Source: Saprospiraceae bacterium (GTDB taxonomy: Bacteria > Bacteroidota > Bacteroidia > Chitinophagales > Saprospiraceae). Taken from it: a DNA stretch of 64,000 nt. Below, piece after piece: positions 33,754 to 41,184 of this stretch. The stretch spans positions 1 to 64,000 of the forward strand of contig JAHDHH010000015.1 of assembly GCA_020631405.1 (NCBI GenBank), written 5' to 3'. Numbering within the stretch: the stretch's first letter is position 1; each line of letters opens with the position of its first letter. The notes beneath the pieces are model-generated. The model saw only the letters and a program-made list of their open reading frames with translations. It ran no database searches and was not told where the DNA came from. Made by a program: the position numbers and the translations under genes.

Positions 33754-36700
33754 CTACATGTTTCTTCTATACTTCCCTCCAACTGAGAACAGTGCATTCG
33801 TAATCTGACCAAGTGTACATGACTTAGTTGCTTGCATAAGTGCATCAAAGACATTACCTCTCTTCAGTGCTATGCTTCTTAGTTTTTCTAATTCTTGTTG
33901 AGCTGTTGACTGATGTGCTTTATGGAGTTGTATAAGATTCTCAATTTGCAATTTCTTTTCTTCTTCAGTAGCTCTAATGACCTCATCAGGAATAATAGTG
34001 GGTGATCCCTTTGACGACAAGAAGGTATTCACTCCTATGATTGGATATTCTCCTGTGTGCTTAAGCATTTCATAATGTAGGCTTTCTTCTTGAATCTTAC
34101 TTCGTTGATACATTGTCTCCATTGCTCCTAATACTCCTCCTCGCTCTGTAATCCTATCAAATTCTGCAAGCACAGCTTGCTCAACTAAATCAGTAAGCTC
34201 TTCAATGACAAATGCACCTTGCAAAGGATTTTCATTTTTAGCTAATCCCAACTCATGGTTGATAATCATTTGTATAGCGACGGCTCTCCTAACACTCTCC
34301 TCTGTTGGCGTAGTAATCGCTTCATCATAAGCATTAGTATGCAGTGAGTTACAGTTGTCATAGATCGCATACAACGCCTGTAATGTTGTCCTGATGTCAT
34401 TGAAATCTATCTCCTGAGCATGGAGAGACCTTCCTGAAGTTTGGATATGGTATTTGAGCTTTTGAGATCGTTCATTGGCATTGTACTTGTACTTCATAGC
34501 CTTTGCCCATATACGCCTAGCCACCCTACCAATGACTGCATATTCTGGATCAACACCATTGCTAAAGAAAAAGGACAAATTGGGAGCAAAATCATTGACA
34601 TCCATCCCTCTGGACAAATAATACTCAACAAAGGTAAATCCATTAGAAAGAGTAAATGCCAATTGAGTAATTGGATTAGCTCCAGCCTCAGCTATATGAT
34701 AACCCGAAATGGAAACTGAATAAAAGTTGCGAACTTGTTGATCAATGAAGTATTGCTGCACATCGCCCATTAGTTTCAAACTAAACTCTGTAGAGAATAT
34801 GCATGTATTCTGTGCCTGGTCTTCTTTAAGAATATCTGCTTGCACGGTTCCCCTTACCGCATTGAGGGCTTTTGCTTTTAGCATATTGTAGACATCACCT
34901 TCAAGGACTTGGTCTCCAGTCAATCCAAGCAGCATAAGACCCAGTCCATTATTTCCTTCTGGTAGTTCTCCAGCATACTTTGGTCTATCATAGCCTTTAT
35001 TGTCATACTGATCAGCAAAAACTGCCTCAACCTTATCTTCAAGTCCATGCTCTTTGATGTAAAACTCACATTGTTGATCAATAGCCGCATTCATGAAATA
35101 AGCACATATGGTTGCAGCTGGACCATTAATAGTCATAGAAACTGATGTCTTTGGGTCACAGAGATCAAAGCCAGAGTAGAGTTTCTTAGCATCGTTTAAC
35201 GAACTAATATTGACTCCGCTGTTTCCTACTTTTCCATAAATATCTGGCCTGTAATCAGGATCTTCTCCATATAGCGTCACTGAGTCAAAAGCAGTAGACA
35301 ACCTCTTCGCTGGCATACCAAGTGAAAGGTAATGAAACCTCTTATTTGTTCTTTCTGGACCGCCCTCACCCGCAAACATCCTTGTAGGATCTTCTCCCTT
35401 ACGTTTAAAAGGAAAAACGCCAGCTGTAAATGGGAATCGACCAGGTACATTCTCCTGTCTTATCCATGTTAACAAGGTTCCATAATCCTTATATCTTGGA
35501 AGTGCAATCTTAGGAATATTATTCTTACTCAGACTCTGAGTATAGTTTTCTACTACTATATCTTTATTCCTAACCCTATATGTAAAGGTCTCTTTAGTAT
35601 ATGTCTTTTTGAGTTCTGCCCAACTTTCCAATTGTTGCAGACTCTCTGGAGTCAATGATTGCTTTACTGATTTGAGTTTGTCCTCAAGAACAGTTTTTAT
35701 GGATGCTTCAGGGCTTATTTCAAGTACATTTTCTAGACTATACAACAGAGAAGCTTGGTGACTTTGCTCTACTGTCTCTGCATCATACTTTCTGATGGTT
35801 TCTGTGATTTCTGACAAGTACCTAACTCGTGCTGGAGGTATGATGAATTGCTTCTCGCTTTCTCCATCTACTGACAGGTTTACAGCTTCAGTGGGTAACA
35901 ACTTACTTGCTAATTGATTAAACAGTGCATTCACCCCGGGGTCATTAAACTGTGATGCTATAGTTGCAAATACAGGCATAGAATCTACATCCTCTTCCCA
36001 AAGATCATTATTCCTTTGGTATTGCTTCTTGACATCTCGGAGGGCATCTTGAGCTCCTCGCTTGTCGAACTTATTAATGACAACATAGTCGGCAAAGTCA
36101 AGCATATCTATCTTCTCTAATTGAGATGCTGCTCCGAACTCAGGAGTCATAACATAGACAGATACATCTGCATGGTCAACTATCTCACTATCACTTTGAC
36201 CTATCCCTGATGTTTCTAAGATGATTAAGTCAAACCCTGCATGTTTATAAATTGCGATAGTCCTATCAATATGCTTACTGAGGGCTAAGTTGTATTGCCT
36301 TGTCGCAAGAGATCTCATGTATACGTTGTCTCTTGATATGGCATTCATTCTTATTCTATCTCCAAGCAGGGCTCCTCCTGTCTTCCGCTTACTTGGATCT
36401 ACACTAATGATACCTAGCTTCTTATTAGGAAATGCTTCAAGATATCTCAACACTAACTCATCCACCAAGCTGGACTTCCCTGCCCCACCAGTACCTGTAA
36501 TACCCAATACTGGAATAGGGCTAGAATCCTGTGATTTTTTAAGCTGCTCTACCCAACTAGTATGGTCATCGGGATAATTCTCGACTGCCGTGATAAGTCT
36601 AGCTATAGCTCCATAAGAACCATCTTTACTCTTCTCTAAGCAATCCTCTACTGTTTCACCTACCGGGTAATCACATAATTCGAGCAGGTGATTGATCATT

Positions 36701-37101
36701 CCTTGCAGTCCCATCTCTCTGCCATCATCTGGAGAATAGATACGAGTAATACCATAGTCATGGAGATCTGCTATTTCGGTTGGAAGTATGGTTCCACCAC
36801 CACCACCAAATACCTTGATGTGCCCTGCCCCTCTATCGTGCAATAAGTCATAGATATATTTAAAAAACTCATTGTGCCCACCTTGATAAGAGGTGATTGC
36901 TATACCTTGGACGTCTTCTTGGATTGCAGCATCGACTATTTCTTTTACTGGCCTATTGTGTCCTAAGTGAATGACCTCTGCCCCAGTACGCTGAATTATC
37001 CTTCTCATGATGTTGATCGCTGCATCATGTCCATCAAATAAAGAACCAGCAGTCAAGATCCTAATCTTGTGCTTAGATTTGTACGGTGTGGCTTGCTTCA
37101 T
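33754..37101 (-). CDS. icmF: Fused isobutyryl-CoA mutase with G-protein chaperone
   Basis: 1115 residues with the IcmF domain order: N-terminal B12-binding domain (DGHDAA, cobalt ligand His25; GGGGTILP near 100), MeaB-like GTPase (Walker [10 protein letters not shown] at 203-211, later NKFDKRG), linker, and C-terminal acyl-CoA mutase barrel ([44 protein letters not shown]). It interconverts isobutyryl-CoA and butyryl-CoA by adenosylcobalamin radical chemistry while the GTPase guards cofactor loading. The fused order and the [15 protein letters not shown] motifs separate it from methylmalonyl-CoA mutase, which is the main alternative. Confidence 0.93.
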
Positions 37102-37251
37102 ATATCAGATATTACATTGCGAAGTTAATAGGTTTGCCTTCATAAAGTGACGATCACGGATATACATTCTCTCTCAGGAACCACATTCCATTAGAAATTG
37201 CTGCATCTAGGCTTATCGCAAAATTTAATTTCAATATCTAGCAGTCAACAC

Positions 37252-37752
37252 CTACTGCTGTTGTAGTATCTCATAAAGTCTTGAAACTACAGCATATGTT
37301 ATCGGACACATCTTGAGATTTGCAGTGTGAGCATGAATTCTATTCTTAAAATTGTCTCGATGAGTATGCGGAAAACTGGAACAAACATCTGGTCGTACTT
37401 CATAGATCTGACATGTATTGTCATCATTGAGCATTGGACAGGGTGTTTGCATCGTGATGTACGAATCATCTCGATTATCCTTTATGAGAAACTTTCTAAT
37501 AAATTGCTTTTTTGAAATCTTAAGGTATTTGGCTGCCCTCGAAATATCACTTGTAGTAAAAGTTGTAACCGAAGTCCTACAGCAATTACCACAGTCAAGG
37601 CAATCTATGTTTTGCTCCACTTCTGCAGACACTTCCTTGGCTTGGCTATCTAATGCCTGAATATGCCTTGAGTTAAGCCCTTGGAGAAATGCTGTTAACA
37701 CCTCTGTCTGTTCTTGGGTCTTCCAATCAGTTATTTGCTGGTGGCTGCTCAA
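37252..37752 (-). CDS. YkgJ-type cysteine cluster protein
   Basis: 166 residues. It has the CxxCxxCC signature (CLDCGNCCRTS, about 54-61) and three further conserved cysteines (CPMLNDDNTCQIYEVRPDVC, later KMCPI), the pattern of the zinc/iron-chelating YkgJ family (UPF0153). Function in the cell is not established. The start is a TTG (37752) that overlaps the TGA stop of the TonB receptor gene in TTGA; no ATG occurs before the cysteine cluster. It is therefore part of the TPP-controlled transcript. Confidence 0.85.
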   Translation of the reverse strand: MSSHQQITDWKTQEQTEVLTAFLQGLNSRHIQALDSQAKEVSAEVEQNIDCLDCGNCCRTSVTTFTTSDISRAAKYLKISKKQFIRKFLIKDNRDDSYITMQTPCPMLNDDNTCQIYEVRPDVCSSFPHTHRDNFKNRIHAHTANLKMCPITYAVVSRLYEILQQQ

Positions 37753-40205
37753 ATTTTGACATTTGCGGTCAACATAAAGTAACGAGTTGCCTGCGGGTAA
37801 TAAAAATTCTCAATGACATAAGCATCTTCAAAACCATAAGAATAGGTATATCCATTAGCTGAATACAAACTGCTCAACAAGTTGTAGCCATGTACCCCAA
37901 TTCTCACCCGTTTGAGTGCTGGCACATTTGGCTGATAGAACAATGCTCCATTTGCTGTAAAGTAGGCTGGAATTACTCTGTCTGGAATACTTGTATTATC
38001 CATATGCTGATGACTGACATACTTGCCACCAAGAGTTGCACTGAGACCACCTTTAAATGCTCCAAATAGGTCTATTCCTCCAACCACGGATGGGCTAAAG
38101 GCAATGTCTGTATCCTCGTAAGTATTGACAACTACTTCTGTGCTTCCATCCAGCTTGTAGTTATACAGGACCTCATCAAAACTATTGATCTTATTTCGAC
38201 TTATTGCCGCATTAGCGCTTAAGCTAAATATATCATTCAGACTGTAGAGTGCCTCTAATTCCAGGCCAGCTCTATAACTCTGATCTACATTAGTTCTGAG
38301 GTTAGCTCCAACATCATTCAATGCGCCTGTCAATACCAACTGATCTCTGTAGTACATGTAATATACGTTTGCTTTCAACGTAATATCTTGAAAAGTTGGC
38401 TGTATTCCCAATTCTGCATTATAAAGTCTCTCTGGCTTGACCTCACTCAATCCAATTGCATTAATGATATCATTTCTGTCCGGCTCTCTGCCGCCAACAG
38501 CGAGTGATGCATATGCCCTTAAGCTATCAACTTGATATGTTACACCCAGTTTTGGATTTACAAATAAGTAATTATTAGAAGTATTAATACCTTTTAATTT
38601 ATTGTCATCACCTTGGATAGTATAATCTACTCCTCTGATTTGAAAGTCAGCAAGACCTATGAGGTTATCCGAAAGCTTAATATTTGCCTTACCATAGGCA
38701 TTGTAATCCAATTTATTTCCTTCATTGTAATAGTATGAGTAACCTATTGATGGTGTCTGAAATTCAACGACATCAATGACTAACCCTTGGTGCTCTCCTA
38801 TATAGTTGCTAAGACCGCCACCAAACTCAATACTCAATTTATCGCTTGCATCAAATTCATTATTAGTAAAGAATCCAAGCAGATTATTGTCTAATGACCT
38901 TCTTCTAATAATGTCATTATAAAAGATCGGATCACCATCACTAGTAGTTGCCGTTAGATTGTAAAATGCTAGTTCGTCATTGACTCTATATTCTTCGAAA
39001 TATCCAAATCCGTGAGTAAAGTAACCCGTAAATCTTGAGTTCAACCTATCAGAGAACGACTTGTAAAAATGTGCCTGAACATGGTCTTGTTGGTAATTGT
39101 CATCTTGTTTGTCGTACGTATAGTAATTGTACCTTCTATCAGAATCAAATAGGTTCGCTTCGTCTTGCGGGGTAAGGTAGATAGAGCCTAGATTGTTGTT
39201 ATAGTGAGTCGTCAATGCTTCTATATCTCCATTAATTCTTGCCTCTGGCACTCCCCACCAAGCCTGATCTGTGACTTCGTTTCCTGAAAAGATGTCAAAT
39301 CTCAACATGGCGTCATCCCATATAATTGTAGGAGATATCATCCAAGAATTGAGCTTACTCCCTCCTCGGTCTACATAGCCATCAGAGTTAATCAATGAGT
39401 ATCTAGCATCAATGCTAAACTTATCATTGAGGATACCAGTACCAACTTTGACACTAAGCTTGTTAGAATTGAACGAACCGATAGACCCATCAAGCTCAGC
39501 ATAACTATCGCCATTGAGCATGTGAGTATTGAGACCTACTGTAGCACCAAAGGCACCAGGTCCATTAGTAGACGTACCTACACCTCGCTGTACTTGTACC
39601 TCCTTTACTGAACTAGCAAAATCTGGCATATTCACCCAGAATACTGATTGAGACTCAGCATCATTCAAGGGTACTCCATTGATTGTAACATTGATCCTGG
39701 ACTGGTCACTACCTCTTATCCTCATGCTTGTGTAACCTATTCCTGCTCCAGCGTCACTAGTTGTAATGACGTTAGTCAATCCACCCAGCAGCATTGGGAT
39801 ATCCTGCCCTGTGTTTCTTTCTCGCAAGTATTCTTGATCTACAACTTCATAGGTGAATGGTTTATCGTCATCAGTCCTTGATCCACTAATCTCAATTTCT
39901 GATAAGTTGTAAAATGATCCTTTCAATTGAACAGAAATATCCATATCTCTATCGATAAGTAATTCTACCCTTTGATCTTCATAACCAAGGTAGGCAACCT
40001 CAACGATATAAGTACCCTCAGGAATCCCATCAATAAAGAAGGTGCCATCGAACTCTGATACTCCTGCGATATCAGTACCGACTAGAAATATGGTAGCCGA
40101 CTCTAGTTTAGATCTATCCTCCGCAGATATGGTACCAGAAAGACTATGTTGAGCACACAAATGCATACTCGTCAATAATAGGAAAAGAACAGTTATTACT
40201 CTCAT
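37749..40205 (-). CDS. TonB-dependent outer-membrane receptor under TPP riboswitch control
   Basis: 818 residues. Signal peptide (cleavage about LCAQ), a carboxypeptidase-regulatory-like domain (SGTISAEDRSKLESATIFLV, about 22-105), plug (about 120-225, with MRIRGSDQSRINVTINGVPLNDAES region) and a 22-strand barrel ending in an aromatic strand (YFMLTANVKI). A TPP aptamer lies in its leader (40269-40343), so the cargo is predicted to be thiamin or a precursor, as for the thiamin-regulated receptors (Omr1/OMthi) described in Bacteroidota. Receptor identity is firm; cargo is inferred from the riboswitch. Confidence 0.92.
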   Translation of the reverse strand: MRVITVLFLLLTSMHLCAQHSLSGTISAEDRSKLESATIFLVGTDIAGVSEFDGTFFIDGIPEGTYIVEVAYLGYEDQRVELLIDRDMDISVQLKGSFYNLSEIEISGSRTDDDKPFTYEVVDQEYLRERNTGQDIPMLLGGLTNVITTSDAGAGIGYTSMRIRGSDQSRINVTINGVPLNDAESQSVFWVNMPDFASSVKEVQVQRGVGTSTNGPGAFGATVGLNTHMLNGDSYAELDGSIGSFNSNKLSVKVGTGILNDKFSIDARYSLINSDGYVDRGGSKLNSWMISPTIIWDDAMLRFDIFSGNEVTDQAWWGVPEARINGDIEALTTHYNNNLGSIYLTPQDEANLFDSDRRYNYYTYDKQDDNYQQDHVQAHFYKSFSDRLNSRFTGYFTHGFGYFEEYRVNDELAFYNLTATTSDGDPIFYNDIIRRRSLDNNLLGFFTNNEFDASDKLSIEFGGGLSNYIGEHQGLVIDVVEFQTPSIGYSYYYNEGNKLDYNAYGKANIKLSDNLIGLADFQIRGVDYTIQGDDNKLKGINTSNNYLFVNPKLGVTYQVDSLRAYASLAVGGREPDRNDIINAIGLSEVKPERLYNAELGIQPTFQDITLKANVYYMYYRDQLVLTGALNDVGANLRTNVDQSYRAGLELEALYSLNDIFSLSANAAISRNKINSFDEVLYNYKLDGSTEVVVNTYEDTDIAFSPSVVGGIDLFGAFKGGLSATLGGKYVSHQHMDNTSIPDRVIPAYFTANGALFYQPNVPALKRVRIGVHGYNLLSSLYSANGYTYSYGFEDAYVIENFYYPQATRYFMLTANVKI

Positions 40206-40268
40206 TCTAAAAATTTCAGACTATTAAATGAATAAATATCACGGAGGTGTCTGATCAAAATAACCAGT

Positions 40269-40343
40269 CACTAATCCCTTAACAGCATTACCTGTTCAGG
40301 TTCAATGGGTATAATCTCAGCCAGAAAGGCACCCCCGATAGTG
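40269..40343 (-). ncRNA. TPP riboswitch (THI element)
   Basis: The minus strand carries the conserved core in order: GGGGGTGCC, GGCTGAGATTATACCC, TTGAACCTGAACAGGTAATGC and AAGGGAT. The ends can pair (CACTA at 40343-40339 with TAGTG at 40273-40269) to form stem P1. It ends 63 bases before the TonB receptor ATG; no strong terminator stem is visible in between, so control may be at translation start. Thiamin pyrophosphate should switch the receptor off. Confidence 0.93.
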
Positions 40344-40351
40344 CAAATATA
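40344..40351 (-). promoter_or_regulatory. Putative -7 box for the TPP riboswitch transcript
   Basis: TATATTTG on the minus strand abuts the aptamer. If used, transcription starts a few bases inside P1, so the transcript would begin essentially with the riboswitch. No TTG is found at the usual distance. Confidence 0.4.
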
Positions 40352-40381
40352 AGGCTGTAATATTTAAGTAAAGACTTAATG

Positions 40382-41122
40382 TTAACTTTCTAACAAAGCT
40401 TGAACTTGCCTATAATCCTCTATGGTATCAATACTCAAGGCAGTATTAGGAATCTCTGCCCCAAACATTCTATGGCCATAATCCAACCATCTCAGTTGTT
40501 CGAGTTTTTCAGATAACTCCAACTTGGTAGGTGCTAAAGAGACCAAATCCAACAAAGTCGCTCTACGAAATAAGTATATGCCAAGATGCCTTTTTGCCAA
40601 ACTCAAATCAGTCATACCATCTCTATTGTATGGTATTGCACTTCTGGAGAAGTACAAACAATTTCCTGTTGAATTGACGACTACTTTTACAGTATTAGGA
40701 TCAACAAACATGGTTTCATCCTGAATACTTGTATAAGCAGTACCTATAGTGAAGTCTTGATGATTGACTAAGTCAATGACTGGCAAGATATGCTCTCTTG
40801 TTAACATTGGCTCATCAGCTTGAACATTGAGGATATAGTCAGTATCAAGTTTAGCTGCGACCTCCGCTATCCGATCCGTACCACAAACATGATCATTGTC
40901 AGTCATCACCACTTTGCCTTCCCAAGATTTGACATGGTCATAGATTTTTGCATGGTCTGTTGCAATAATGATTTGATCAAATACATTTAATTCTTTCAAG
41001 TTATCATGAACATGTTGAACCAAACTCTTGCCATTCAATAACATCAACACTTTCTCTGGCAGTCTAGTCGAATGCAACCTGGCAGGAATAATGGCAGTTA
41101 TTCTTGGTTTAACTGTTGTCAT
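40382..41122 (-). CDS. kdsB: 3-deoxy-manno-octulosonate cytidylyltransferase
   Basis: 246 residues. Activates Kdo as CMP-Kdo for lipopolysaccharide inner core. Visible motifs: IIPARLHSTRLPEK (nucleotide loop), NVQADEPML, GIYLFRR and the LELSEKLEQLRWLDYG segment typical of KdsB. Ten further codons upstream reach a TTG only; the ATG at 41122 is used. Confidence 0.95.
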   Translation of the reverse strand: MTTVKPRITAIIPARLHSTRLPEKVLMLLNGKSLVQHVHDNLKELNVFDQIIIATDHAKIYDHVKSWEGKVVMTDNDHVCGTDRIAEVAAKLDTDYILNVQADEPMLTREHILPVIDLVNHQDFTIGTAYTSIQDETMFVDPNTVKVVVNSTGNCLYFSRSAIPYNRDGMTDLSLAKRHLGIYLFRRATLLDLVSLAPTKLELSEKLEQLRWLDYGHRMFGAEIPNTALSIDTIEDYRQVQALLES

Positions 41123-41184
41123 ATACTTGGAGTTAAAGTTGTCATAATGCAAACGGTAATATTATCGATTATGCTAATATGTTG

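Follow-up and report, generated by a model that had tools for sequence, protein, structure and literature searches.

A TPP aptamer placed before a thiamin-type TonB receptor in a Saprospiraceae bacterium, and the YkgJ-type gene that is probably its passenger

When a small gene overlaps the end of a vitamin receptor gene, does it share in the work of the receptor or merely travel with it? The question is raised by a locus in a 64,000-nucleotide stretch of DNA, which we call the window (positions 1 to 64,000 of contig JAHDHH010000015.1, from the Saprospiraceae bacterium assembly GCA_020631405.1), where a thiamin pyrophosphate (TPP) aptamer is followed by a gene for a TonB-dependent receptor and then by a gene for a cysteine-cluster protein of the YkgJ type. 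A first-pass annotation of this DNA had bound both genes into one transcript under the aptamer, and had proposed that the YkgJ-type protein may have a role, linked to the uptake of thiamin, in metal handling or the use of a cofactor. Our analysis indicates that the locus is very probably the thiamin-uptake switch of a bacterium unable to make vitamin B1, and that the YkgJ-type gene is probably a passenger within it. The parts on which the argument turns are as follows.

40344..40351, minus strand: -7 promoter box TATATTTG (exact TAnnTTTG), overlapping the 5' edge of the TPP aptamer; identified from the sequence
40257..40348, minus strand: TPP riboswitch aptamer (RF00059), by covariance-model match, with an aptamer at the equivalent place in three genus-mates
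40242..40249, minus strand: possible anti-aptamer arm CACCTCCG, complement of CGGGGGTG in aptamer helix P2; a weak prediction from the ligand-free minimum-energy fold
37749..40205, minus strand: TonB-dependent receptor of the thiamin type (OMthi-like), 818 aa, by its Pfam domains and by the family found downstream of TPP aptamers
37252..37752, minus strand: YkgJ-type CxxCxxCC protein, 166 aa, with a TTG start, by PF03692; likely a passenger in the transcript

The full aptamer of the first-pass annotation was recovered by a covariance-model search of the leader, in which RF00059 was matched at 40257-40348 on the minus strand from the first to the last of its 105 positions, at 47.2 bits and, over the 301 bases searched, E 2e-8; genome-wide it was the sole TPP match at E<=1 in 3.79 Mb (E 5.8e-8). 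The likeness to the family lies in this match and in the conserved blocks GGGGTG, CTGAGA, ACCC, AACCTGA, TAATGC and AGGGA; the window aptamer differs from it in a shortened P3, in having no P3a hairpin in the alignment, and in a minimal P1 beside the predicted transcription start.

What such aptamers control was followed in 80 genomes, mostly drafts, made up of the window's own (G000) and 79 relatives, among them its three genus-mates (G001, G002 and G003). A TPP match was present in 72 of them, and in 38 of the 72 it exceeded the Rfam cut-off. The downstream gene was determined at 61 loci (the window's and 60 others, with 11 of the matching genomes and second matches in two left out), and it belonged to a single receptor family at 50 of the 61 and was a thiC-type gene at 11, the identity of all 11 as ThiC being confirmed by PF01964. 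A short open reading frame (ORF) stands between the aptamer and the controlled gene in a few loci, and thiC comes second in G065. Among the left-out genomes, six (G064, G071, G072, G073, G078 and G079) have a receptor-family gene beside the aptamer and three (G053, G069 and G070) have ThiC there, with G062 and G075 lying outside the downstream-gene examination. Paired TPP matches, possibly tandem aptamers, were also seen at G060:C68:13145-13361 and at G062:C10:2399-2590, the latter pair overlapping and weak.

The window's receptor carries the Plug, TonB_dep_Rec_b-barrel and CarbopepD_reg_2 domains (Pfam profile search), and the aptamer is placed to control it, as the first-pass annotation had it; with 50 of 61 aptamers leading to this one family, its statement that thiamin-regulated TonB receptors occur in Bacteroidota is also borne out. 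The combination is the known OMthi arrangement of that phylum as described in the accessible parts of PMC5613172, where OMthi (BT2390) of Bacteroides thetaiotaomicron likewise has a TPP aptamer before a TonB-dependent receptor and a PnuC-family inner-membrane transporter in the genome. The likening is by gene order and not by receptor sequence, and there are differences from the system as those parts give it: the window's genome is without TPK and ThiC, it has a NadR-like kinase in place of TPK, it has no pnuT-tnr3 operon because it has no TPK, and its receptor is followed by a YkgJ-type gene. The association of aptamer and receptor is real, and nothing unusual among such bacteria.

The promoter box reported beside the aptamer could be placed in the same wider setting, since TATATTTG at 40344-40351 has counterparts of the TAnnTTTG type within -60 to +15 of the aptamer start at 46 of the 61 loci; in random 75-mers the rate is 3.4%, and in shuffles 5.7%. 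Where there is a box, its end commonly lies about 13 nucleotides before the GGGG of P2, and 6-9 nucleotides before it in the window's genus. If such a box occupies -11 to -4 relative to the start of transcription, the window transcript would start inside P1, which may be only partly transcribed. The pairing P1 of the first-pass annotation is thus present in the DNA, as five pairs (CACTA/TAGTG) overlapping the predicted transcription start, and part of it may never reach the RNA. A P1 of at least five pairs was found in 23 of the 54 loci with a recognised core (7 of the 61 were dropped), compared with about 10% of random placements. By this reckoning the aptamer stands at the very start of its RNA, and the helix that closes it is minimal. 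Related TPP aptamers often start at or beside a -7 box, with a minimal P1.

From these parts a course of events can be proposed, in which transcription would start at the -7 box on the edge of the aptamer and the leader, when TPP is plentiful, would fold around it, so that less receptor is made. When TPP is scarce, the receptor would be made and thiamin imported through the outer membrane, a PnuC-family transporter encoded elsewhere would carry it over the inner membrane, and a kinase together with ThiL would convert it to TPP. The YkgJ-type gene would ride the same transcript as a passenger, held in place by the conserved gene order of the genus.

Its presence on that transcript is suggested by the junction between the two genes. 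The stop of the receptor gene does overlap the TTG start of the YkgJ-type gene, by 4 nucleotides (TTGA) and at the coordinates first given, and the spacings in the four genomes of the genus are this -4, +20, an ATG 1 nucleotide after the stop (G002) and +19. A promoter of its own, which the first-pass annotation had said would tell against the shared transcript, was sought as a TAnnTTnG box within 120 nucleotides upstream of ykgJ, and none was found in G000, G002 or G003; in G001 a TAGCTTTG box lies 114 nucleotides upstream. The spacing, together with the three box-free genomes out of four, makes co-transcription with the receptor likely, and this part of the earlier proposal survives at that strength. 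The alternative, that the expression of ykgJ does not depend on the riboswitch but is driven by a promoter within the receptor gene or in some other way, and that the overlap is only compact packing, could draw on the G001 box and on a junction that is not fixed within the genus, but it sits poorly with the three genomes in which no box was seen and we consider it unlikely. Likely as co-transcription is, a thiamin function of YkgJ does not follow from it.

That the bacterium would depend on imported thiamin is suggested by what its genome holds of the pathway. Profile searches gave no match for ThiC in this or any of the four genus genomes, none for ThiE at E<=1e-8 in the window's genome and none in the three genus-mates, and none for TPK (PF04263, TPK_catalytic) at E<=1e-5 in the window's genome, which does have ThiL and two PnuC-family genes. 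The second of these, a weak one, lies at G000:C66:27948-28472 (56.7 bits) and has like matches in the three genus-mates. Across the 80 genomes, ThiC occurs in 15, TPK in one (G078) and ThiL over its cut-off in 75, while ThiE over 100 bits occurs in 15, i.e., 14 of the 15 ThiC genomes and G078, with four other genomes having weak PF02581 matches of 38-62 bits. ThiL is over its cut-off in 60 of the 64 genomes without ThiC and TPK, and PnuC-family genes are found in 62 of the 65 genomes without ThiC versus 1 of the 15 with it. ThiL needs thiamin monophosphate (TMP), and since the window's genome has no match to ThiC, ThiE or TPK, something must turn thiamin into TMP. The candidate for that step lies outside the window:

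G000:C76:25962-26453 (L239:3960-4463), minus strand: NadR-like AAA_28 kinase, candidate thiamin kinase, from its distribution in two genome samples

The kinase was picked up because 19 of the 61 loci have a gene of this family upstream of the aptamer and on its strand. Of the 80 genomes, 64 have neither ThiC nor TPK, and 57 of these carry the kinase; none of the 16 with either does. Kinase and TPP aptamer occur together in 54 genomes and are no more than 4 kb apart in 24 of them, sharing a strand in 23; for the kinase and a PnuC-family gene the corresponding count is 13 of 55, one weaker row being left out. A wider sample of 129 genomes of the window's class, with two (G000 and G067) common to the first sample, gave the same division: 64 of 70 genomes without ThiC and TPK have the kinase versus 4 of 59 with either (Fisher p 2e-24, for genomes that are not independent), and 123 of the 129 have at least one of kinase, ThiC and TPK. 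Of the seven mixed families, four (f20, f23, f33 and f63) consist of genomes with either the kinase or ThiC/TPK, never both. Of the kinase genes at the ten best class loci, four of them in a single genus, nine are immediate neighbours of a pnuT-type gene. In G001, G003, G060 and L250 the kinase, or the pnuT-kinase pair, has a YkoF-type or thiamin-binding-family gene next to it, and in L255 and L257 the gene ahead of the pair is of the ThiE/TenI family (PF02581 over cut-off). YkoF or Thiamine_BP genes in such positions are at L240:3310-3582, L242:4501-4773, L248:5091-5372 and L250:637-888, and an ORF of G056 homologous to the YkoF-type neighbours has no Pfam match of its own.

The copy in the window's genome is of a more divergent kind (167 aa, 141 bits, with AAA_28 as its only domain above cut-off), and no pnuT-type gene was recognised beside it on a contig that ends 169 bases further on. 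The nearest solved relatives of the kinase are NadR kinase domains (PDB 1lw7, 6gye, 8x7f and 9x6f; profile matches at E 4e-22 to 2e-16), with which its P-loop, DT and D-x-x-R positions align. It differs from NadR in being mostly stand-alone, about 165-190 aa and without an adenylyltransferase domain; in the window genome's copy the nicotinamide mononucleotide adenylyltransferase domain of the NadR fusion is absent, and member A2 of the family matches TIGR01526 over the kinase part only (64.4 bits against a cut-off of 341). Its surroundings are a further difference, as in many genomes it stands beside pnuT-type genes or a TPP-controlled receptor, while a few genomes have YkoF-type or TenI/ThiE-type genes next to it.

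We infer that this mostly stand-alone P-loop kinase probably phosphorylates imported thiamin to TMP, from which ThiL would make TPP, and that it would replace TPK across much of the window's class, very probably Bacteroidia. As a candidate it is apparently undescribed: no title or abstract among those listed names it, in a literature whose subscription part was only partly covered, and the first thiamin-phosphorylating enzyme is not identified in the accessible parts of the papers found, including PMC5613172, PMC6593275 and PMC7221760. Some results tell against a thiamin kinase. A search of 13 loci (the ten class loci and the kinase loci of G000, G001 and G002) found no TPP aptamer close to the kinase, the kinase is present in four of the 59 class genomes that have ThiC or TPK (in three of these the match is in a long open frame of 348-738 aa that may be NadR or a fusion), and seven genomes of the first sample (G011, G013, G022, G023, G042, G059 and G062, five of them less than 90% complete) have none of kinase, ThiC and TPK. 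In the rival reading the enzyme is a true nicotinamide riboside (NR) kinase working with an NR transporter, which the fold of its closest solved relatives would fit, and the PnuC-family neighbours may carry thiamin or NR.

A related alternative concerns the receptor, which might prefer TMP, TPP or a pyrimidine precursor over thiamin itself. A TPP switch says only that the product feeds TPP, and the ThiL of the genome could take imported TMP directly, but with no ThiE match in the four genus genomes that enzyme could not serve to join precursors, the PnuC-family genes and the NadR-like kinase track the receptor, and PnuT carries thiamin, as shown according to the accessible parts of PMC5613172. 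We therefore regard a preference for such a relative as improbable, and take thiamin as the putative substrate.

The YkgJ-type protein itself scores 49.5 bits against PF03692 (curated cut-off 23), and shares with that family the CxxCxxCC motif (C51, C54, C57 and C58) and four more cysteines (105, 114, 124 and 149), all eight of them invariant in 28 YkgJ homologues. Its AlphaFold2 model has a predicted local distance difference test score (pLDDT) of 92.1 and a predicted template modelling score (pTM) of 0.82. A search by sequence for a solved relative gave one PDB match up to E 1, which at E 0.72 is not credible; with the model, Foldseek gave 0 matches at E<=0.001 and VIA-align a best Z of 2.4, which proves nothing about novelty. 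Literature searches on YkgJ and CxxCxxCC, judged from listings of papers, gave no function. Metal binding (zinc or iron) is attributed to PF03692 in the family description only.

Homologues of the protein (E<=1e-6) are found in 48 of the 80 genomes, and 45 genomes have both YkgJ and a TPP match. The first-pass annotation had suggested looking in related genomes for YkgJ-like genes behind thiamin receptors. In the genus, 4/4 genomes have such a gene within 4 kb of the aptamer, against 0/41 of the others with both, most of the genomes being drafts whose contig ends could hide some pairs. At that distance YkgJ is likewise never a neighbour of a PnuC-family gene (36 genomes with both) or of the NadR-like kinase (32 with both). 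It occurs in 11 of the 15 ThiC genomes versus 37 of the 65 others (Fisher p 0.38). The neighbours at 30 YkgJ loci nearly all differ outside the genus, with six gene families recurring, each in two loci. A further 80 named YkgJ loci, searched with every fourth receptor-family protein over 700 aa as queries, held no full thiamin-type receptor, and short weak matches in 3/80 (78-98 aa, E 4e-8 or worse). The receptor search carries this test, since the aptamer motif search, also silent, finds only 27 of 61 known aptamers and its silence is weak. Among the loci examined, then, a YkgJ gene behind a thiamin receptor sets the window's genus apart from the rest of the PF03692 family.

Within the genus the adjacency must be read against the genes on either side, which lie outside the system:

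40382..41152, minus strand: kdsB (CMP-KDO synthetase), the upstream neighbour, which bounds the leader; NCBIfam TIGR00466 above cut-off
33754..37101, minus strand: icmF (fused isobutyryl-CoA mutase), the downstream neighbour; NF045497, 1768 bits

The order on the minus strand is kdsB, a 33-nucleotide gap, the TPP aptamer, the receptor gene, the YkgJ-type gene and, beginning 150 nucleotides past it, icmF. Between 8.0 and 45.4 kb the window has 35 ORFs, and every one is matched in G002 with the order unchanged, two adjacent paralogues having one match between them; in G001 nine ORFs around the switch keep their order, with icmF and one ORF missing from the contig; the G003 contig is only 4.8 kb. 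The adjacency of receptor and ykgJ carries little signal because the surrounding 37 kb is collinear in G002, and the pair is kept at least partly since everything around it is kept. Linkage beyond background gene order, as a functional thiamin operon including YkgJ would show, was not found, and YkgJ as a thiamin partner was rejected as unsupported by linkage, co-occurrence and collinearity. The proposal that YkgJ works with thiamin uptake, e.g., in handling a metal or Fe-S cofactor when TPP is low, can point to tight spacing in all four genus genomes, to the three without a -7 box nearby and to the eight invariant cysteines, yet with no such neighbourhood outside the genus, a block that is collinear anyway and a YkgJ about equally common in ThiC genomes, we hold it very improbable.

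Several observations weigh against a working switch with a passenger gene and have to be set beside those that favour it. The YkgJ proteins of the genus are only 52-54% identical to the window's, and still the receptor-ykgJ pair is kept in four genomes, a retention despite divergence that co-adaptation would also predict. The window aptamer, at 47.2 bits, does not reach the Rfam gathering score of 54.3, for which reason a default Rfam scan lists nothing, the gathering score being a curation threshold and not a defining trait of a TPP riboswitch. P1 has 2, 1 and 2 pairs in the three genus-mates. As to how control would be exerted, CGGGGGUG of P2 can pair in the ligand-free leader with CACCUCCG at 40249-40242, breaking the aptamer (minimum-energy fold, z -1.72), and no equivalent of this arm was recognisable by eye in the genus-mates; folding of the aptamer alone was no better than shuffles (z -0.43). 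A terminator mechanism was dropped, there being no intrinsic terminator or terminator-like site in 37000-40500. In B. thetaiotaomicron the OMthi mRNA showed no significant change with thiamin, according to the accessible parts of PMC5613172, and control may therefore be translational or weak, with the downstream gene perhaps hardly controlled. That the aptamer is decaying and regulation lost in the genus, as scores of 43-47 bits, all under the cut-off, in the four genomes and little or no P1 in three might suggest, we judge highly unlikely, because all four keep an intact core, CTGAGATTATACCCATTGAACCT included, although the flanks have diverged, and each of the four has a fitting -7 box.

Read as the thiamin-uptake switch of a bacterium unable to make the vitamin, the locus extends the known OMthi-type arrangement to another lineage of Bacteroidota, and it carries a caution, i.e., that an overlapping gene is no proof of shared function. 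Many genomes of the class seem dependent on imported thiamin, and the widespread presence of a specific kinase candidate makes their first phosphorylation step testable. If true, the kinase reading would correct annotations of these proteins as NAD-salvage kinases.

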